In this document: in pieces, positions 26,337-38,007 of the stretch
Numbering within the stretch: the stretch's first letter is position 1
Layout: each line of letters opens with the position of its first letter
Origin: an archaeon
Lineage (GTDB): Archaea > Thermoproteota > Nitrososphaeria > Conexivisphaerales > DTJL01
Length of the DNA stretch: 42,682 nt
Assembly: GCA_021811935.1 (NCBI GenBank)
Contig: JAKAPW010000004.1
Coordinates: 1 to 42,682, forward strand
Reading direction: 5' to 3'
The notes under the pieces: model-generated
The model's database searches: none
The model's input: the letters and a program-made list of their open reading frames with translations, nothing else
Told to the model about the DNA's origin: nothing
Position numbers and translations under genes: made by a program

Positions 26337-27644
26337 TCACCTGAACGTGGCCGTCCCCCACTTCTTCAGCGCCTCTCTCAGTGGCCTGCTCTTCCTGGCG
26401 TATTCCTCCAGGGAGATCTTCTTCATGTACGCGTCTATGGCGTCCCTCATGGCCTCGGCGCCGGCCTTGCCTCCGGAGGGGTGCCCCCATATGCCCCCTC
26501 CTATCTGGACCACTATGTTCGTCCCGAGCATGTCGAGCACAGGAGGGATCAGCCCCACGTGGAGGCCGCCCGAGCTGACGGGGAAGACGGGCCTGGTCCC
26601 CGACCACTCCGCCCCGAGCAGGCCCTCCCCCGCCCGAGAGGAGTCCGCCGTCAGCTTCTCCTCTATGGAAAGGACCTCCGGCTTCGTGGAGACCAGCTTC
26701 CCCACCACCGTGCCGACGTGGAGCTGGTCCACGCCGAGCAGCCTGCAGACCGACGCGACCACCACCATGCTCATGCCGTGGGTCGGCATCCTGGTGAAGG
26801 CGGCGTGGAAGGCCCTGTGGGCGTGGATGGCCAGCCCCAGCTCCTGGCAGGTGTCCCGGAGCGTCTGCAGGGCGGACCAGCCCGCGGTTATGACGTCTAT
26901 CATCACGTATTCGCCGCCGAGCTCCTTGACCACCTTGGCCCGCTTCATCATCTCCCTGGTCTCCGCGGTGATGTTGATCAGGTAGCTCTTGCGCTCCCCC
27001 GTCTCCCTCTCCGCCTTGTCCCTCATCTTGAAGGACTGCTTCGCCCTGTCCGCGAAGGAGTTGAAGTTCTGGCTGGTCAGGTTCTCGTCGTCCTTCAGCA
27101 GGTCGAGCCCGCCGACCCATGCCTCGTACCCGTGCCTGGCGTGCTCCTTGTAGTCGAGGCCCAGCTTCGGCTTGGGGACGGAGGCGGTCAGCGGCCTGCC
27201 CTTGACCTTCATGAAGTCCCTGACGCCGCCTATCCCGAACTGGGGACCCGGGAAGGACTTCACGAGCTCCTTCGGCCAGCCGACGTCGACCAGCCTCAGC
27301 CCCTTGAGCGCTTTCATGCCGAAGATGTTGCCGGCTATGCTGCTCAGTATCTGGGGCATGTTCCCCGGCTCGAACAGCCGGAGGGGATAGGAGACGTGGA
27401 CGTACTGGTCCTCTATCTTGTACGCGTTGGCCATCAGGCTCCTGATGTCCTTGTTCAGGGTGGTCAGCGTCGTCCATGTGCCCACGCTGCTCTCGGACGC
27501 CACCCTTCCGGCGGCCTCCTCCATCGAAAAGTCCTGCGCCGGCTGCACCTTGAACAGGGCGACCAGCTCGTCCGCCGCGGGCCTGCGTTTGGTGTTCACG
27601 AAGTCCGTGTACCACTCGACCTTCTCTGCCATGCCTTGAGTCAC
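26337..27644 (-). CDS. rbcL: Ribulose-1,5-bisphosphate carboxylase, archaeal form III
   Basis: Large-subunit-only RuBisCO of 435 aa. Conserved active-site segments are intact: SVPKPKLGLD (catalytic Lys), GGLDLLKDDENL (carbamylated Lys with Asp-Glu metal ligands), HAHRAFHAAF, the loop 6 part VVGKLVST, SSGGLH and VQIGGGIWGHP. Form III enzymes turn ribulose bisphosphate from nucleosides or nucleotides plus CO2 into two 3-phosphoglycerate. ATG 27632 is possible, but GTG 27644 is 28 nt from a TATA box and is preferred. It shares that box with the divergent peptidase gene. A nucleoside phosphorylase gene lies close by; ribose-1,5-bisphosphate isomerase and phosphoribulokinase are not in the window. 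Confidence 0.95.
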   Translation of the reverse strand: MTQGMAEKVEWYTDFVNTKRRPAADELVALFKVQPAQDFSMEEAAGRVASESSVGTWTTLTTLNKDIRSLMANAYKIEDQYVHVSYPLRLFEPGNMPQILSSIAGNIFGMKALKGLRLVDVGWPKELVKSFPGPQFGIGGVRDFMKVKGRPLTASVPKPKLGLDYKEHARHGYEAWVGGLDLLKDDENLTSQNFNSFADRAKQSFKMRDKAERETGERKSYLINITAETREMMKRAKVVKELGGEYVMIDVITAGWSALQTLRDTCQELGLAIHAHRAFHAAFTRMPTHGMSMVVVASVCRLLGVDQLHVGTVVGKLVSTKPEVLSIEEKLTADSSRAGEGLLGAEWSGTRPVFPVSSGGLHVGLIPPVLDMLGTNIVVQIGGGIWGHPSGGKAGAEAMRDAIDAYMKKISLEEYARKSRPLREALKKWGTATFR

Positions 27645-27668
27645 TCCGAACGCGACGAACGCCGAGAA

Positions 27669-27676
27669 ATATATAT
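27669..27676. promoter_or_regulatory. Shared palindromic TATA box for rbcL (-) and the M24 peptidase gene (+)
   Basis: ATATATAT reads the same on both strands. Its centre is 28-29 nt from GTG 27644 on the minus strand and 29-30 nt from ATG 27702 on the plus strand. No other TATA-like string lies in this 57-base gap. Confidence 0.65.
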
Positions 27677-27701
27677 GTCTTGACGGCCCACCGGGCGCAG
27701 C

Positions 27702-28778
27702 ATGCGGCCGGGGGTGCTGGACAGGGTGCGGGGCAGGCTGCGGGAAAGGGGGCTGGACGGCTTCGTCCATTTCCAGACCAGCAGGGCCAGGGAGAACGTG
27801 GTGCTGCACTACCTGTCGGGGGTGATGCGGCTCGAAGACTCGGGGATACTCGTGCCCGTCGACTCCGACCCGGTGCTCTTCGTCAAGGACTTCGAGGGGG
27901 AAAGGGCCGCGCGGATGGGCAGGATAGGCGACACCAGGGCGCTGGCCACCGTGCCCCTCGACTCGGCGATGCGCGGCGTGGGAGAGATCCTCCGCGAGAA
28001 GGGGCTCGAGGGAAGGCGGCTGGGCATCGACGACTCCGAGCTGAGCGTGGAGGTGTTCCTGGAGCTGCAGAAGCTGGGGCTCGAGCTCGTGCCGTTCGGT
28101 TCGGAGATACGCGAAATGATGACCATCAAGGCGCCGGAGGAGGTGGCCAGCATAAGGAGGGCGGTCGGGCTGGCCTCAGCGGCCCTGGGCAGGGTACGGG
28201 AGCTGGCGGCTTCGGGCATGAGCGAACACGAACTGGCGGCCGAGGCGTCGCTCGTCATGGAGAGGGGCGGCGGGGAGAAGTCGTTCGTCCACGTCCAGTA
28301 TGACCGTAACGCTTCCTTCCCCCACCACGATTCGGACGGCACCAGGGTCGAGGGGGACGGGTTGCTGGTCGTCGACCTGGGGGCCAGGGTAGACGGATAC
28401 ACCTCCGACCTTACCAGGACCTTCGCCGTCGGAAGCCCGAAGGGCGAGAGGGTCAAGATCATGGAGGCGGCCAGGGACGCGCTGGAGGCGGCCATCGAAG
28501 CCGTGAGGCCGGGCGCCGCGGTCGCCGACGTCGCGAAGGCGGCAAGGGACGTGCTGAGGAGCAGGGGGCTCCCCGGCCCCAAGCACAGGATCGGACATGG
28601 CGTCGGCCTGGGCGTCCACGAAAGGCCGATAGTGGAAGAAGGTTTCCCGGGCAGGCTCGCGGAAGGGATGGTCCTGGCCATAGAGCCTGGCGTCTACATC
28701 CCGGGCGTGACCGGGTGCAGGCTGGAGTCCAACGTCCTGGTGACGGCAGACGGTCACGAAGCGCTGGACGAGCTCTAG
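27702..28778 (+). CDS. pepQ: M24-family metallopeptidase (Xaa-Pro dipeptidase/aminopeptidase-like)
   Basis: 358 aa: a creatinase-like N-terminal domain (about 1-130) and a pita-bread catalytic domain. The five metal ligands are seen: two Asp in VVDLGARVDGYTSDLTR, His in GHGVGLGVHERP, Glu in AIEPGVYIPG and Glu in CRLESNVLVT. It cleaves N-terminal Xaa-Pro bonds, probably in dipeptides from protein turnover, in the cytoplasm. ATG 27702 with the shared TATA box. Prolidase and aminopeptidase P cannot be told apart by eye. Confidence 0.92.
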   Translation: MRPGVLDRVRGRLRERGLDGFVHFQTSRARENVVLHYLSGVMRLEDSGILVPVDSDPVLFVKDFEGERAARMGRIGDTRALATVPLDSAMRGVGEILREKGLEGRRLGIDDSELSVEVFLELQKLGLELVPFGSEIREMMTIKAPEEVASIRRAVGLASAALGRVRELAASGMSEHELAAEASLVMERGGGEKSFVHVQYDRNASFPHHDSDGTRVEGDGLLVVDLGARVDGYTSDLTRTFAVGSPKGERVKIMEAARDALEAAIEAVRPGAAVADVAKAARDVLRSRGLPGPKHRIGHGVGLGVHERPIVEEGFPGRLAEGMVLAIEPGVYIPGVTGCRLESNVLVTADGHEALDEL

Positions 28779-30973: not shown

Positions 30974-31804
30974 GTGGAGTACAGGGAGTTCGGGAAGACG
31001 GGCTTCAGGGCGTCCGTGGTGGGTATGGGGACGTACTACGACCCGCTCTGGATACTGCTGGCGGCCGTGGGCGCGAGGCGCCGCGTCGGACGTTGCATCG
31101 GAGCCATCGAAAGGGGGCTGGAGTCCGGCATGAACGTGATAGACACGGCGGAGCTTTACAAGACGGAGCCGCTGGTCGCGCGTGCCGTGGCGGGGAAAAA
31201 GAGGGACGAGATACTGATAGCCACGAAGGTGTCGCTGCCGTACCACTTTTCGCACGACGGCGTGCTGAAGGCGTGCGCGAAGAGCCTGGACCGGCTGCAG
31301 ACAGGCTACATCGACCTCTACCAGATACACTTCCCGTACAGGATGGGGAAGATAAGGGAGGTGATGGCCGCGATGGAGAAGCTGGTGGACGAAGGCAAGG
31401 TCAGGCACATAGGGGTGAGCAACTTTTCGCTGGAGCAGACCGTCCAGGCGCAGGAGGCGATGAACAGGTACGAGCTCGCCTCGACTCAGATGCACTACAA
31501 CGTGGCGCACAGGGACATTGAGCTCGACCTGCTTGCCCACTGCCAGAAGGAGAAGATCGCGGTCCTGGCGTACTATCCGCTCGGGCACGGCAGGCTGGCG
31601 AGGGCGAGGGCGGGCCCGATCGACGAACTGAAGAAGAAGTACGACAAGACTCCCGCGCAGCTGGCCCTGAACTGGCTCGTTTCGAAGTCTGCCTTCCCCA
31701 TACCGAGGGCGTCCGACCCTTCGCACGTGGCGGAGAACTCTCAGGCTGGAGGCTGGAGGCTGGAGCCGTCGGACATGGAGCGGCTGCAGTCTGCCTTCGC
31801 ATAG
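30974..31804 (+). CDS. Aldo/keto reductase
   Basis: 276 aa TIM-barrel NAD(P)H oxidoreductase. The catalytic tetrad is present: Asp57 and Tyr62 (NVIDTAELY), Lys85 (IATKVS) and His119 (YQIHFPY). Cofactor segments IGVSNFS and YYPLGHGRL follow; the C-terminus (IPRASDPSHVAEN) matches the NADPH-binding end. It reduces sugars or aldehydes; substrate unknown. An insertion of hydrophobic residues (WILLAAVGARRRVG, about 26-40) replaces the short loop usual after the first strand. GTG start set by a CTTAAG box. Confidence 0.88.
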   Translation: MEYREFGKTGFRASVVGMGTYYDPLWILLAAVGARRRVGRCIGAIERGLESGMNVIDTAELYKTEPLVARAVAGKKRDEILIATKVSLPYHFSHDGVLKACAKSLDRLQTGYIDLYQIHFPYRMGKIREVMAAMEKLVDEGKVRHIGVSNFSLEQTVQAQEAMNRYELASTQMHYNVAHRDIELDLLAHCQKEKIAVLAYYPLGHGRLARARAGPIDELKKKYDKTPAQLALNWLVSKSAFPIPRASDPSHVAENSQAGGWRLEPSDMERLQSAFA

Positions 31805-31912: not shown

Positions 31913-33322
31913 GTGTCCTGCTTCTTGGAAAAGAGCGACGTGGGGCTGATGGGGCTCGGCGTCATGGGGGCCAACCTTGCGCTCAACCTCGAGAGCAAGG
32001 GGCACCGCGTGGCAGTCTACAACAGGACGAAGTCCGTCACCGAGGAGTTCGTCCGGCAGAACGAAGGCACGAAGCTGACGGCTGCCGGTTCGGTCGAGCA
32101 GTTCGTCCTGTCCCTGGAGAAACCCAGGGTGATATTCGTTATGGTGACGGCCGGCGCCCCCGTGGACGCCGTGGTCGCCGAGCTGGTCCCCCTCCTCGAC
32201 CAGGGGGACGCCGTGGTCGACGCGGGAAACTCGTTCTTCAAGGACACGATGCGGAGGGAAAGGCTCCTCGCGGGCAAGGGCATGTCGTTCGTCGGCCTTG
32301 GCGTATCCGGCGGGGCCGAAGGGGCGCTCAAGGGGCCCAGCATCATGGGCGGGGCCTCGCCGGAGGCCTGGTCCAGGGTCGGCCCCCTCCTCGAAGGGAT
32401 AGCGGCCAGGGCCTTCGACGCCACCCCGTGCTCGGCCAGGGTGGGGCCGGACGGGGCGGGGCATTACGTGAAGATGGTGCACAACGCGATAGAATACGTC
32501 GACATGCAGCTCATAGGGGAGGCCTACCACGCCTTCCTGGCGGCGGGGATGACGAACGAGCAGATCGCCTCCGCGTTCTCCAGGTGGAACAGGGGTGACC
32601 TGGGGTCGTACCTCGTCGAAATAACCGCCCGCGTGCTGAGGAAGAAGGACAGGCTGACGGGGAGGAACCTGGTCGACATGGTGCTGGACACGGCCGAACA
32701 GAAGGGGACGGGCCGCTGGGCCACGGAGAGCGCGATGGAACTGGGGGTCCCCGCCTACAGCATGGCAGCCGCGGTGATGACCAGGTACATGTCCTCCCTG
32801 AAGGGAGAAAGGTCGGCCGCGGAATCGCTGGGGGGCAGGCAGAGGGCGAAAGCCGCCGTGGACATGGACCAGCTGCACGACGCGCTCTACGCATCGAAGG
32901 TCTGCGCCTACGCGCAGGGATTCCAGCTCATCTCCGCTGCCTCGAAGGAGTACGGGTGGGGGATCGAGCCGGCCACGGTGGCGCACGTGTGGCAGGGGGG
33001 GTGCATCATCAGGGCGAAGCTCCTTGCCGACGTGGAAGAGGCGTTCCTGAAGGGGGACCGGCCGAAGAACCTCCTGCTGGACCCCAAGCTCATGGCCGCC
33101 GTCAAGAGGTGCGAAGAGGGATGGCGTGGCGCGGTCTCGAAGGCCGTGAAGGCGAACCTGCCCGTCCCGGCCCTCTCCTCGTCTCTGGCCTACTATGACT
33201 CGTATTTCTGCGCCAGGCTCCCGGCGAACCTGCTGCAGGCGCAGAGGGACTACTTCGGGGCGCACACGTACAGGCGGACCGACGTGGACGGGACGTTCCA
33301 CACCGAATGGGAGAAGGATTGA
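31913..33322 (+). CDS. gnd: 6-Phosphogluconate dehydrogenase, full-length type
   Basis: 469 aa, the length of bacterial/eukaryal homodimeric Gnd. NADP site GLMGLGVMGANLALNLE with NRT after the second strand, GVSGGAEGALKGPSIMGG, active site HYVKMVHNAIEY with catalytic Lys, and the C-terminal tail RLPANLLQAQRDYFGAHTYRR and FHTEW that reaches into the partner subunit. It oxidises and decarboxylates 6-phosphogluconate to ribulose-5-phosphate, making NADPH. Such an enzyme is uncommon in archaea. GTG 31913 is the track start; TTG 31925 also fits, and I see no clear TATA at the usual place. The Gfo/Idh-like gene starts 2 bases after its stop, probably one operon. Confidence 0.95.
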   Translation: MSCFLEKSDVGLMGLGVMGANLALNLESKGHRVAVYNRTKSVTEEFVRQNEGTKLTAAGSVEQFVLSLEKPRVIFVMVTAGAPVDAVVAELVPLLDQGDAVVDAGNSFFKDTMRRERLLAGKGMSFVGLGVSGGAEGALKGPSIMGGASPEAWSRVGPLLEGIAARAFDATPCSARVGPDGAGHYVKMVHNAIEYVDMQLIGEAYHAFLAAGMTNEQIASAFSRWNRGDLGSYLVEITARVLRKKDRLTGRNLVDMVLDTAEQKGTGRWATESAMELGVPAYSMAAAVMTRYMSSLKGERSAAESLGGRQRAKAAVDMDQLHDALYASKVCAYAQGFQLISAASKEYGWGIEPATVAHVWQGGCIIRAKLLADVEEAFLKGDRPKNLLLDPKLMAAVKRCEEGWRGAVSKAVKANLPVPALSSSLAYYDSYFCARLPANLLQAQRDYFGAHTYRRTDVDGTFHTEWEKD

Positions 33323-33324
33323 AG

Positions 33325-34431
33325 ATGACATATGTTATGGGCGCGTCCGGGCTCGGGCACTGGGTCCGAAGGCTGCAGATGACGCTCTCGGAACGGGAGA
33401 ACCAGCTGGCACTCCGGAAGGCGGTGGGCACCAAGAGCTACGCCGTCAGGAGGGATGAGCTGCAAAGGTACGGCATAGAGGAGCGGAACTACTTCAGCAT
33501 AGACCCCGGGGAGCCCCTCCCCGACGCGTTCTTCGACGGCCTCGACGTGGTCTACGTGGCCAGCCCGAACGAGTTCCACAAGGCGCAGACGCTGCAGGCG
33601 CTGGAGAAGGGGAAGGTCACCGTCACGGAGAAGGCGTTCGCCACCACCAGGGCCGAGTTCGAGGAGGTGGTCCGCGAGGCGAGGGCCAGGGGCAGGGACA
33701 GGGTCACCTTGGGCCTCCATTACGTGACCAAGACGCTGACGATGGAGCTCGGGAAGATGCTCCCTTCGCTCGTGAAGCGGTACGGAAAGGTGCAGTCCGT
33801 CGTCTCCACGTTCTTCGAGGAGGTGAGGGACGAGGATGCCCGCAGGGCATGGCTCTTCAAGCCGGAGAACGGGGGGGTGGCGATGGACTGGATACACCCG
33901 CTCTCCATAATATCCTATGTCATGAAGGCGGAAAGGTTCTCCCTGCAGGACTGCACGCCGTACGTCATACAGGAGTTCTATGACTCGGTGAACCCGACGG
34001 GGTACCACGGAAGGTTCGGCGTGAAGGGGAGGCATTTCTCCCAAGACGCGGTCGCGGTCGTGCGCGTGGGGAAGGGCGTGCGGGAGGCCCACAAGGTCTT
34101 CAAGGTCAGGCTCGAGGACGCCCAGGTGGAGCTCCTCTACATCAGCACCGACGACGAGTTCCTTACGGGCAGCAGGGGGAAGATGGTGATAACGGAGAAG
34201 GGGGGCAAGTCCACCACGGTGAGCCCGTCCGGCCCCCTTTCGTACGAGTTCATGATAGACGACATGCTCAGGATGCTGAAAGGCGGCGCCCCCATGCTCT
34301 CGCTGGAGGACATAACCAAGATATACGAACCCGAATGGCAGATACAGCGGGGGCTGGCGTCGGCGAAGCCCGTCCGCAAGAGGGACGAGATAGACGAGTT
34401 CGTCTCCGCCGGCCTGGCGGGCAGGCTATGA
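33325..34431 (+). CDS. Gfo/Idh-fold dehydrogenase, candidate non-classical glucose-6-phosphate dehydrogenase
   Basis: 368 aa, two-domain dehydrogenase. N-terminal Rossmann motif MGASGLGHWV; ASPNEFHKAQTLQALEKGKVTVTEK (79-103) is the shared EK(P) region of the Gfo/Idh/MocA and Zwf families. LHYVTK (131-136) recalls the DHYLGK phosphate-binding motif of Zwf, with His132, Tyr133 and Lys136 at equal spacing, and GGVAMDWIH (183-191) supplies an Asp and a possible catalytic His191. It follows gnd by 2 bases, so a sugar-phosphate oxidation making 6-phosphogluconate is attractive. The track start 33307 lies within gnd; ATG 33325 is preferred. It could also be an unrelated sugar dehydrogenase. The fold is seen with fair confidence, the function is inference. 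Confidence 0.7.
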   Translation: MTYVMGASGLGHWVRRLQMTLSERENQLALRKAVGTKSYAVRRDELQRYGIEERNYFSIDPGEPLPDAFFDGLDVVYVASPNEFHKAQTLQALEKGKVTVTEKAFATTRAEFEEVVREARARGRDRVTLGLHYVTKTLTMELGKMLPSLVKRYGKVQSVVSTFFEEVRDEDARRAWLFKPENGGVAMDWIHPLSIISYVMKAERFSLQDCTPYVIQEFYDSVNPTGYHGRFGVKGRHFSQDAVAVVRVGKGVREAHKVFKVRLEDAQVELLYISTDDEFLTGSRGKMVITEKGGKSTTVSPSGPLSYEFMIDDMLRMLKGGAPMLSLEDITKIYEPEWQIQRGLASAKPVRKRDEIDEFVSAGLAGRL

Positions 34432-36768
34432 CGGGGGGGCCCGGTTCAGCAGCTGCCACACGTACTCCGGCGTCAGGGGGAGCCTTTCTATCACGGCGCC
34501 GTGCTGGGACAGTGCGTCCTCCACCGCGTTGACTATCGCCGGAGTGGAGGCTATCGAAGCCGCCTCGCCGATCCCCTTGACGCCGAGAGGGTTGGCGTCG
34601 GTCGGCGTCTCGGTGGTGTGCCACGACATCCCCGGCACGGACATCGCTGTGGGGATGCCGTAGTCCGCCAGGGTGGCCGTGAGCAGCTGTCCGCCTTCGT
34701 CGTAGGAGAGCTCCTCCATCAGGGCCTGGCCCAGCCCCTGCGCCATCCCGCCCATCACCTGCCCCTCCGCCAGCAGGGGGTTCAGTATACGTCCGCAGTC
34801 GTCCACGGCCACGTACTTCAGGACGTCGACCCGACCCGTCTCCCTGTCCACCTCCACCAGGCAGATGTGCGACCCGAACGGGAAGGTGTTGCTCTTCGGC
34901 ACGAACGCGGAGTACTCGAAGAGCGTGGGCTCCATCCCACGAGGGAGCCGGCCGGGGTCGTAGGCGGCCGAGGCGACCTCGGCGAAGGCCACGCTCTTTG
35001 ACCCCCTCGAGTGTACCCTTCCGTCCCTGAACTCGACGTCGGCGTCCGTGTCCATCATCCTGGCGGCTATCGCGGCCATCTTGTCCCTTATCCTCCTGGC
35101 GCAGACGAGCACCGCGCTGCCCCCCACCGCGGCCGAACGGCTTCCGGCCGTCACGGTGCCGTACGGGAGCGACGCCGTGTCGCCATACCTGACGTAGACG
35201 TCCGAGGCTTCGATGCCGAGCTCGTCCGCCGCGATCTGCGCGAAGGGGGTGGCGTGCCCCTGCCCGTGCGGGTTCCCTCCCGAGTTGACCACGACCTTCC
35301 CTTCCTCGGTCACGGCCACGGACGCCGTCTGGGGGAATGTCGGCCCGAAGCCGCACACCTCCACGTACGTCGCCACTCCGACGCCGAACAGCCTCCCCTG
35401 CTCCCGTCCCCTGCGCTGCAGGCCCCGGAGCCCTTCGTAGTCGGCGACCTCGACCGCCTTGCTCAGGTTCTTCTCGTAGTCGCCGCTGTCGTAGGTGAAC
35501 CTCTTGGTCACTATCTGGAACGGGAAGCGGTCGGCTGGGATGAAGTTGACCTGTCTCACCTTGACAGGGTCCAGCTTCAGCTTGCCGGCTATGACGTTCA
35601 TCGTCCTCTCTATCAGGTACGATGCCTCGGGGCGGCCCGCCCCCCTGTAGGCGTCGTGCGGCACCTTGTTGGTGAAGGCGCACTTCAGCTCCGCCTTTAT
35701 GGCCCCGAAGTCGTAGTTGCCGGAGCATATCTGCGGCGTGACCCTGGGACCGAAGACGGCCTCGCTCGTGGAGTAGGCCCCGGAGTCGGCCACGATGCTC
35801 ACCTTGAGCGCCAGGAGCCTGCCGTCCTTCCTGACCGCGGCTTCGACGCGCTGCACCTGCCCCCTTCCCTGGGTGGTTGTCAGGATGTTCTCCCTCCTGC
35901 TCTCGGTCCACTTGACCGGCCTGCGTAGCAAGATCGCGGCGAAGGAGACGACCACCTCCTCCGGATATGTGGAGATCTTCGAACCGAACGCACCGCCCAC
36001 GTCCGGGGAGACCACGCGCACGCTGGGCTTGGGGAGGCGGAGCATCCTGGCCAGCGTATCCCTGGCGGAAAAGGGGTCCTGGCAGCCCAGGTGGACGGTC
36101 AGGGCCCCCGTCCCGGGGTCGTAATGCGACAGGACGCCCCTCGGCTCCAGCGGCACCGGCGCTATCCGCTGGTTCAGGAAGCTGGCGGAGACGACCCGGT
36201 CGGCCTTGCCGAATATCTCGTCGAAGCCCGGGGTCTCTATGCTGTACTCGTACGCGAGGTTGTCACCCAGGTCGCCGTGCACCCTGGGGGAGCCCCTTTC
36301 CAGCGCCCTGACTGGGTCGGTCACCGCGGGGAGAGGGTCGTAGACCACCTCCACCAGTTCGGACGCGTCTTCGGCGGCCTGCCTGTCCGACGCCACCACG
36401 ACGGCCACGGCCTCCCCCTCGTAGTTGGCTTCCCCCTGCGCCAGGACGGGCCGCCTGGTGTACTTCACCTTCTGGTCGTCCTTTTCGGTGGGCATGTCCT
36501 CGACCTTCCCGGAGAGGTCCTCCTGCGTCATCGCCAGCAGGACGCCCGGGTGGGCCCTGGCCCCTGACGCGTCTATGGAGACTATCCTGGCGTGGGGGTG
36601 GGGGGACCTGACGAACGACGCCCACGCGGTCCCTTCCATCGTTACGTCGTCGAGGTATCTTCCGGCCCCCCTCAGGAACTTCGGGTCTTCGGCCCTCTTC
36701 ATCGGCCTGCCGACCAGTTCCCGCCTGCGGCTGACGGCCACCTGCGAAGTAGCGCTCACGATTATCAT
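34426..36768 (-). CDS. Molybdenum hydroxylase large subunit (xanthine dehydrogenase/aldehyde oxidoreductase family)
   Basis: 780 aa Moco-binding subunit. N-terminal GRPMKRAEDPKFLRGAGRYLDD is typical; then LEPRGVL, AYRGAGRPEASYLIER, the Moco contact GNPHGQGHATPFAQI, and the catalytic Glu735 in GVKGIGEAAS. It lacks the AYRCSFR active-site string of form I CO dehydrogenase. Substrates could be aldehydes, purines or others; a glyceraldehyde oxidoreductase as in Sulfolobus is possible given the sugar genes. The FeS and FAD subunits are not next to it. Starts: ATG 36768 (20 nt from the TATA centre) or GTG 36759 (29 nt). The remaining 311 track residues are not protein-like. It overlaps the end of the Gfo/Idh gene by 6 bases. 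Confidence 0.9.
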   Translation of the reverse strand: MIIVSATSQVAVSRRRELVGRPMKRAEDPKFLRGAGRYLDDVTMEGTAWASFVRSPHPHARIVSIDASGARAHPGVLLAMTQEDLSGKVEDMPTEKDDQKVKYTRRPVLAQGEANYEGEAVAVVVASDRQAAEDASELVEVVYDPLPAVTDPVRALERGSPRVHGDLGDNLAYEYSIETPGFDEIFGKADRVVSASFLNQRIAPVPLEPRGVLSHYDPGTGALTVHLGCQDPFSARDTLARMLRLPKPSVRVVSPDVGGAFGSKISTYPEEVVVSFAAILLRRPVKWTESRRENILTTTQGRGQVQRVEAAVRKDGRLLALKVSIVADSGAYSTSEAVFGPRVTPQICSGNYDFGAIKAELKCAFTNKVPHDAYRGAGRPEASYLIERTMNVIAGKLKLDPVKVRQVNFIPADRFPFQIVTKRFTYDSGDYEKNLSKAVEVADYEGLRGLQRRGREQGRLFGVGVATYVEVCGFGPTFPQTASVAVTEEGKVVVNSGGNPHGQGHATPFAQIAADELGIEASDVYVRYGDTASLPYGTVTAGSRSAAVGGSAVLVCARRIRDKMAAIAARMMDTDADVEFRDGRVHSRGSKSVAFAEVASAAYDPGRLPRGMEPTLFEYSAFVPKSNTFPFGSHICLVEVDRETGRVDVLKYVAVDDCGRILNPLLAEGQVMGGMAQGLGQALMEELSYDEGGQLLTATLADYGIPTAMSVPGMSWHTTETPTDANPLGVKGIGEAASIASTPAIVNAVEDALSQHGAVIERLPLTPEYVWQLLNRAPPS

Positions 36769-36783
36769 GACCGGGCTTCGGCG

Positions 36784-36793
36784 ATTATAAAAG
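36784..36793 (-). promoter_or_regulatory. TATA box for the molybdenum hydroxylase gene
   Basis: The minus strand reads CTTTTATAAT. Spacing favours GTG 36759 as the leaderless start over ATG 36768. Confidence 0.55.
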
Positions 36794-37210
36794 ATTAGTG
36801 TGGATCGCCTGCCGGCAGTATGATCCGCTTCCAGGTCGCCCCCAAGCTCCCCGGGCATCAGGACTCGCGCCCGTCCGCCAGCGCCTTCGCCCGTGTGGCC
36901 ACGCCCGGCCATCGGCTGACAGGGCTGCCCGTTGAGGCATATCCCCCTCTTCTCTTCTCTTCTCTTCTTGCCCTCGCCGCTGTCGTCGTTCCTTGCCCCC
37001 TTCAGCCCCTCGAAGGCGAAGGACGCGCCAGGGTCCCTTCCGTTGCTTTCATCGGGGGATCGCGCGGCGCATACCTGACACCCCTCCGCTGCCTCCTTGA
37101 GCGACTCCGCGCCCCAAGGGGTCGCCTCAGGGCCGAGCGGGCCCTGACCGCCGGACGCGCGTTTGGTGGTCACGCACAGATACACGGGGATACGTATATC
37201 TGCACGGATG
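36794..37210. other. Intergenic region with a short tandem repeat, no convincing gene
   Basis: About 420 bases between the hydroxylase promoter and the SDH promoter. A perfect (CTCTT)x4 tandem lies at 36947-36966. The open frame 36820-37218 (+) uses mostly CGN for Arg, unlike neighbouring genes, and resembles no family. I see no tRNA-like T-loop or other RNA signature. Confidence 0.4.
36947..36966 (+). repeat. (CTCTT)x4 tandem repeat
   Basis: Four perfect 5-base units followed by CTT. Such a pyrimidine tract may vary by slippage; no gene is shown to depend on it. Confidence 0.75.
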
Positions 37211-37212
37211 AG

Positions 37213-37220
37213 CTTTAATG
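37213..37220 (+). promoter_or_regulatory. TATA-like box for the SDH membrane-subunit transcript
   Basis: CTTTAATG centred 27-28 nt before GTG 37244 and 38-39 nt before GTG 37255. The nearer GTG opens a 4-codon ORF. Confidence 0.5.
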
Positions 37221-37243
37221 CGCCGACGCACAGAAAAGGACAC

Positions 37244-37258
37244 GTGACAAAAGCGTGA
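37244..37258 (+). other. Four-codon leader ORF coupled to the SDH membrane-subunit gene
   Basis: GTG ACA AAA GCG TGA: the stop overlaps the GTG start of the next gene (GTGA). Its GTG, not that of the main gene, sits at leaderless distance from the TATA-like box. Translation is inferred. Confidence 0.35.
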
Positions 37259-38007
37259 CGGTTTCCGACGGCGGGCAGGAAGTGACAGGGACAAGGCGGC
37301 CGAAGCACCGATTCACCGCGGGTGACCTCCTTCCGTGCGAGCTTGTCGAGCCGAACTGGAGGCTGTGGAGCTTCGTAATCGTCTTGGCCGTCGGCTTCTG
37401 GGCGCTCTTCTCCTTTCCCGTACCTGAGGTCGGCGGCTACGTAGACCCCTTCTACAGCCCGACAATACTGATCCTGCCATTGCCCGGCCTCTACAGGCTG
37501 ACCTGCTACGCCTACAGGAAGGACTACAACAGGCATCTGTTCCACCACCCCCTCGGCTGCGGCAACGCGGAGAGACGGGAGAAGCACCGCTTCGCGTACA
37601 CGGGGGAAGGCAGCGCCTTCTTCAAACTTGAGAACCTGCACCGCTACTTCCTCTATGCCGGGATAGCCATACTCCCGTTCTTCTATTATGACTTCTATCA
37701 CTCTCTCATCTACACCGGCGTCTTCACCCTCAGGCTGGGCAGCCTGGTCCTCCTGGCCAACGCGCTGTTACTCACCGCATGGACCTTCTCGTGCCATGCG
37801 CTCAGGCATCTTACGGGAGGGAACATCGACTGCGATTCATGCGTGAGGGCGGGCGCCCTTCGAAGGTCCGTCTTCAATGCCCAGAGCAGATGGAACGAGC
37901 ACCATGAGGCGCTGGCGTGGATAAGCCTGCTGGCGATCTTCTTCACGGACATGTATCTGCGTGCGCTCCAGGCAGGCCTGCCGCTGGACTTCGTGTTCTT
38001 CAGGTGA
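37255..38007 (+). CDS. Succinate dehydrogenase membrane (cytochrome b-like) subunit candidate
   Basis: 250 aa membrane protein with about five hydrophobic helices (near 37-56, 68-86, 130-148, 161-181, 219-236). Many His lie at helix ends: RHLFHHPLGCG, NLHRYFL, FYHSLIY, SCHALRHLTGG, NEHHEALAW, suited to bind haem b. CDSC adds two Cys. The position next to sdhB-sdhA, and the heme-ligand pattern, suggest it anchors the flavoprotein/iron-sulfur pair and passes electrons to quinone. It does not resemble classical SdhC by motif that I can name, so the role leans on context. GTG 37255 overlaps a mini-ORF stop. Confidence 0.65.
   Translation: MTVSDGGQEVTGTRRPKHRFTAGDLLPCELVEPNWRLWSFVIVLAVGFWALFSFPVPEVGGYVDPFYSPTILILPLPGLYRLTCYAYRKDYNRHLFHHPLGCGNAERREKHRFAYTGEGSAFFKLENLHRYFLYAGIAILPFFYYDFYHSLIYTGVFTLRLGSLVLLANALLLTAWTFSCHALRHLTGGNIDCDSCVRAGALRRSVFNAQSRWNEHHEALAWISLLAIFFTDMYLRALQAGLPLDFVFFR

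Follow-up and report, generated by a model that had tools for sequence, protein, structure and literature searches.

The window, a stretch of 42,682 nucleotides of archaeal DNA, encodes a 6-phosphogluconate dehydrogenase (Gnd), which raises the question of where its substrate, 6-phosphogluconate, comes from. The original prediction assigned this role to the gene that directly follows gnd on the forward strand (33325–34431, 368 residues), as a glucose-6-phosphate dehydrogenase of a new type. Our analysis points in the same direction: glucose-6-phosphate 1-dehydrogenase activity of the Gfo/Idh type, NADP-linked, is the most likely function that we can predict for this gene, and we regard it as probable.

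The upstream partner is well defined. The gnd gene (31913–33322, forward strand) codes for a full-length NADP-type enzyme that scores 630 bits against NF006765 and 599 bits against TIGR00873, both over the cut-off, and retains the NRT cofactor motif, the SGG motif and the K..HN..E active site, residues described previously (PMC8900737). The reading frame behind it is intact, and its start at 33325, as predicted 2 bases behind the end of gnd at 33322, is backed by alignment with three orthologues. Across the four genomes of the family that carry both genes, the gap between them measures 2, 3, 6 and 6 bases, whereas 58–128 bp separate gnd from the aldo-keto reductase gene upstream of it (30974–31804, forward strand), a conserved neighbour whose position is kept in all four genomes. 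Because of this difference in spacing, gnd and the downstream gene form a two-gene unit within a larger conserved block, and we infer that they are co-transcribed. The gene for a molybdenum hydroxylase large subunit (34426–37701, reverse strand) lies convergent with the downstream gene in the same four genomes.

Full-length orthologues, with 57–62% identity, are confined to four genomes of the window's own Nitrososphaeria family (150 relatives searched), where the order of the pair is invariably kept across three genera. Given this degree of identity, the shared order and the short gaps, the association of the two genes is not due to chance. The family carrying the pair is small and comprises soil and hot-spring archaea. 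A profile search of 398 genomes of the phylum yielded no further full-length relative, the other matches being generic partial Gfo/Idh proteins below 36 bits; a scan of GTDB contigs returned relatives in Nitrososphaeria/Thaumarchaeota MAGs, isolates DRTY1_bin.15 and Centralia_MAG_53, and no orthologues beyond the family. Scanned plasmids and viral contigs held no relative of the gene. As to gnd, only the four family genomes and one genome of another family (G039) possess it among 61 genomes searched.

Conserved order mostly extends to the peptidase, nucleoside phosphorylase, arginine deiminase, aldo-keto reductase and molybdenum hydroxylase genes of the block and, since the entire neighbourhood is thus syntenic, the adjacency of the gene and gnd is partly a matter of inheritance. 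It is conceivable that the gene is functionally unlinked to Gnd and was merely passed on with its surroundings, as the conserved order of the unrelated genes would suggest. We nevertheless consider this quite improbable, as none of that accounts for the narrow spacing within the pair compared with that upstream of gnd, nor for the finding that, within the order, each genome has either both genes or neither.

A functional link to Gnd is further indicated by the inventory of pentose phosphate enzymes. The window's genome measures 1.46 Mb and is 85% complete, while its relative G003 is 99% complete and was examined nearly whole. The expected lack of zwf was borne out, as a search with PF02781 found none in the window's genome or in 60 relatives. 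F420-dependent glucose-6-phosphate dehydrogenase was considered and rejected for the family genomes, which hold only weak paralogues, the best scoring 78 bits as compared with 272 and 253 bits in two other genomes; the protein of interest itself has neither TIGR03554 nor TIGR03557 among its NCBIfam matches. No short-chain dehydrogenase/reductase (SDR) protein with an NLTX2H motif was found in G003. Counting against the assignment, searches for three known families of 6-phosphogluconolactonase likewise found no member in the family or in G039.

Archaea usually obtain ribulose 5-phosphate from fructose 6-phosphate by way of 3-hexulose-6-phosphate synthase (HPS). Of the other genomes of the order, 11 were tested and each has a full-length HPS (104–182 bits), whereas none was detected in three family genomes (93–99% complete) or in G039, and the window's genome yielded a 40-bit fragment only. 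Loss of HPS alone does not require Gnd, since ammonia-oxidising relatives (family f7, by inferred identity) have neither HPS nor gnd. Transketolase, Rpe, HPS and Zwf gave no match in G003 (tblastn/phmmer; L017, L084–L103, L107–L201), so that the G003 lineage appears to be missing the non-oxidative pentose phosphate route, although the E. coli queries used could overlook an archaeal transketolase of divergent sequence. RpiA is present in G003, and a phosphoglucose isomerase-like gene is found below its cut-off.

With zwf, an F420-dependent enzyme of Fgd grade, gluconokinase, HPS, transketolase and Rpe not found in these searches, Gnd is the sole recognised maker of pentose phosphate, and because it requires 6-phosphogluconate, the adjoining gene is the best candidate for its source. 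The claim that the gene feeds the Gnd pathway is therefore supported by its tie to gnd in all four genomes, by the lack of orthologues elsewhere, by the failure to find another type of glucose-6-phosphate dehydrogenase and by the missing HPS route. This genomic context is stronger evidence than the sequence motif discussed below.

To which family does the protein belong? Its N-terminal Rossmann domain matches PF01408 (GFO_IDH_MocA) with 35.7 bits against a Pfam cut-off of 24, while the C-terminal Gfo/Idh domain PF22725 reaches 13 bits and stays under its cut-off of 27, so that the placement rests on the N-terminal domain and on the fold. An AlphaFold2 model based on 28 sequences shows high confidence along its whole length (mean pLDDT 92.7, pTM 0.91); an earlier model from a shallower alignment had a pLDDT of 74 in the active-site segment, which the deeper alignment remedied. 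The top 50 PDB matches of the model are all Gfo/Idh-type enzymes, in agreement with the two-domain build originally proposed, and the best among them are aldose-aldose oxidoreductase, glucose-fructose oxidoreductase, levoglucosan dehydrogenase and L-glucose/scyllo-inositol dehydrogenase. Several of these neighbours act on an aldopyranose by oxidising its C1 (PMC4628093, PMC5969746).

All four members share residues K103, H132, Y133, K136, E165, D188 and H191 without exception, K103, D188 and H191 being the usual active-site residues of Gfo/Idh enzymes. D188 and H191 (D188-W189-I190-H191 codons at 33886–33897, forward strand) align with the Asp/His pair of the relatives and are the candidate catalytic pair; the downstream Asp...His noted in the original prediction is thus retained. 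At the EKP position (E102-K103-A104-F105, 33628–33639, forward strand) all four members read EK[AT]: the lysine is retained, and the proline, present in 30 of 31 other Gfo/Idh proteins, is replaced by Ala or Thr, which is unusual for Gfo/Idh proteins and for Zwf alike. Behind the second strand, every member carries a G-T-[KR]-S loop; as T-[KR] at positions 36–37 takes the place of the Asp found in 20 of the 31 other proteins, the enzyme would be NADP-preferring.

Most characterised Gfo/Idh enzymes act on free aldoses (glucose, xylose) or inositol, and the protein could do the same, with a separate kinase supplying the 6-phosphogluconate for Gnd. The closest folds are those of free-sugar enzymes, and glucose-fructose oxidoreductase presumably also carries an HY near the position of the HYxxK motif, which we count in favour of a free substrate. 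Yet the kinase that such a route demands was not found: for the FGGY kinases examined, the best match is glycerol or xylulose kinase rather than gluconokinase, and the P-loop gluconokinase GntK, searched in G003 alone, gave no match. K136, moreover, is invariant in the family, and we judge a free sugar or inositol to be an improbable substrate. The comparison with the aldose-aldose oxidoreductase of Caulobacter (5a02) and the glucose-fructose oxidoreductase of Zymomonas (1ofg/1rye) illustrates both sides. They provide the best folds (TM up to 0.83 by target length), oxidise C1 of aldopyranoses and share the Lys-Asp-His active site; unlike the gene studied here, with which they have 14–19% identity, they act on free sugars, whereas the present protein has lost the EKP proline, keeps K136 and E165/E166 invariant and is linked to gnd.

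Glucose 6-phosphate as the substrate was originally proposed partly on the basis of a Zwf-like H-Y-x-x-K motif (H132-Y133-x-x-K136, 33718–33732, forward strand), a candidate phosphate-binding motif. In the predicted model it sits in the loop between strand 127–129 and helix 137–153, which we take to be the position of DHYLGK in the order of elements of Zwf. Counted from the EK lysine, its spacing is 29 residues as against 30 in Zwf. In the classical enzyme, His, Tyr and Lys of DHYLGK hold the phosphate and a separate His serves as the base (PMC6471386, PMC9734377), the strand-helix loop being the carrier of phosphate binding (PMC9734377). Part of the argument stands, since no family member deviates from the motif, which lies in the appropriate loop. 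The rest is weaker: Leu131 occupies the place of the partner Asp of DHYLGK, the EKP proline is lost and sequence homology to Zwf beyond the EK region is lacking. At K+30/31, [RH][YFW] is frequent among generic Gfo/Idh proteins, and of the 31 unrelated proteins in our control set one carries the full motif (HYIPK at exactly K+30), which makes the motif weak evidence; as a diagnostic it was downgraded. HYxxK may be called compatible with phosphate binding, and is no proof of it. The single carrier (L055:1300-2274), a generic Gfo/Idh protein of another Thermoproteota genome with its motif at the Zwf-equivalent position, may likewise act on a phosphorylated substrate.

By sequence, the protein is not a homologue of Zwf. 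It has no match to the G6PD domains of Pfam at E≤10, hhalign against E. coli Zwf was negative, and the profile-profile comparison of the family with Zwf gave a probability of <1%; a broad Gfo/Idh profile aligns with Zwf in the EK region alone, with a probability of 74%. Zwf (PF00479/PF02781) and the present protein have in common the expected reaction, the gnd-zwf order of some bacteria and an EK and an HYxxK at nearly equal spacing; they differ in length (491 residues in E. coli) and in the Gfo/Idh profile and fold of the latter. A further resemblance, of T-F-x-E (E165) and R-x-G-K (K250) to Zwf ligands, is suggestive in its spacing, but the control alignment was too gappy and we keep it as a lead only.

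The enzyme could also use a different phosphorylated compound linked to Gnd, for instance a keto-gluconate phosphate, or oxidise glucose 6-phosphate at C3 in the manner of NtdC, the reaction being a side or repair step. Its structural neighbours do include ketosugar reductases and enzymes that oxidise C3 (KijD10, GnnA), and the adjoining aldo-keto reductase has the diketogluconate reductase DkgB as its top match, albeit below the cut-off. But amino-sugar genes or other ketogluconate genes are not found beside the gene, and Gnd would then have no supplier of 6-phosphogluconate; hence, we hold such a reaction to be unlikely.

We thus propose that the Gfo/Idh/MocA-fold enzyme, with a preference for NADP, would oxidise C1 of glucose 6-phosphate to 6-phosphogluconolactone, which would hydrolyse to 6-phosphogluconate spontaneously or through an unrecognised lactonase; the substrate, the C1 chemistry and the lactone hydrolysis are what we infer. 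Gnd, as the other half of the unit, would oxidise and decarboxylate 6-phosphogluconate to ribulose 5-phosphate and NADPH, and RpiA would convert the former to ribose 5-phosphate. In this family, the two-gene unit would replace the HPS (reverse RuMP) route.

Three unrelated kinds of glucose-6-phosphate dehydrogenase have been described, namely Zwf, the F420-dependent enzyme and an SDR-type enzyme (PMC8506132). An oxidative pentose phosphate branch as such would not be novel for archaea, contrary to what was first suggested, because the haloarchaeal SDR enzyme Azf already catalyses its first step, and oxidative pentose phosphate enzymes are reported in Thaumarchaeota too (PMC8506132); it is the type of enzyme that would be new. 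Azf shares its place in the pathway with the candidate (PMC8506132); it differs in its unrelated SDR fold with a Ser-Tyr-Lys triad and is said to be confined to Halobacteria. If our assignment is true, the Gfo/Idh type would add a fourth kind of first-step enzyme, one not described before, Zwf-like in its role in the pathway and outside the Zwf family. It would show the same chemistry arising again, Zwf and glucose-fructose oxidoreductase sharing an old fold, and would explain the ribose supply of archaea that have neither HPS nor transketolase.

Parallels in gene order exist elsewhere. On two bacterial plasmids gnd is followed by zwf, and in G039 it lies near a gene of the F420-dependent glucose-6-phosphate dehydrogenase family (272 bits against TIGR03554 and over the cut-off of TIGR03557) and a sugar-isomerase-like gene, as if another first enzyme filled the same slot. 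The F420-dependent type (Fgd; TIGR03554/TIGR03557) resembles the present one in lying near gnd in G039; it differs in being luciferase-like and in using F420, and the window's family has no member at its score. In G039 (L015:2149-5388), a cyclase/arylformamidase-like gene stands between the F420-dependent enzyme's gene and gnd, and could be an unrecognised 6-phosphogluconolactonase. Finally, the window holds a RuBisCO large subunit gene (26337–27809, reverse strand) near a nucleoside phosphorylase gene, with a 67% orthologue in G003 (L136); ribulose 5-phosphate made by Gnd could link to RuBisCO if a phosphoribulokinase exists.
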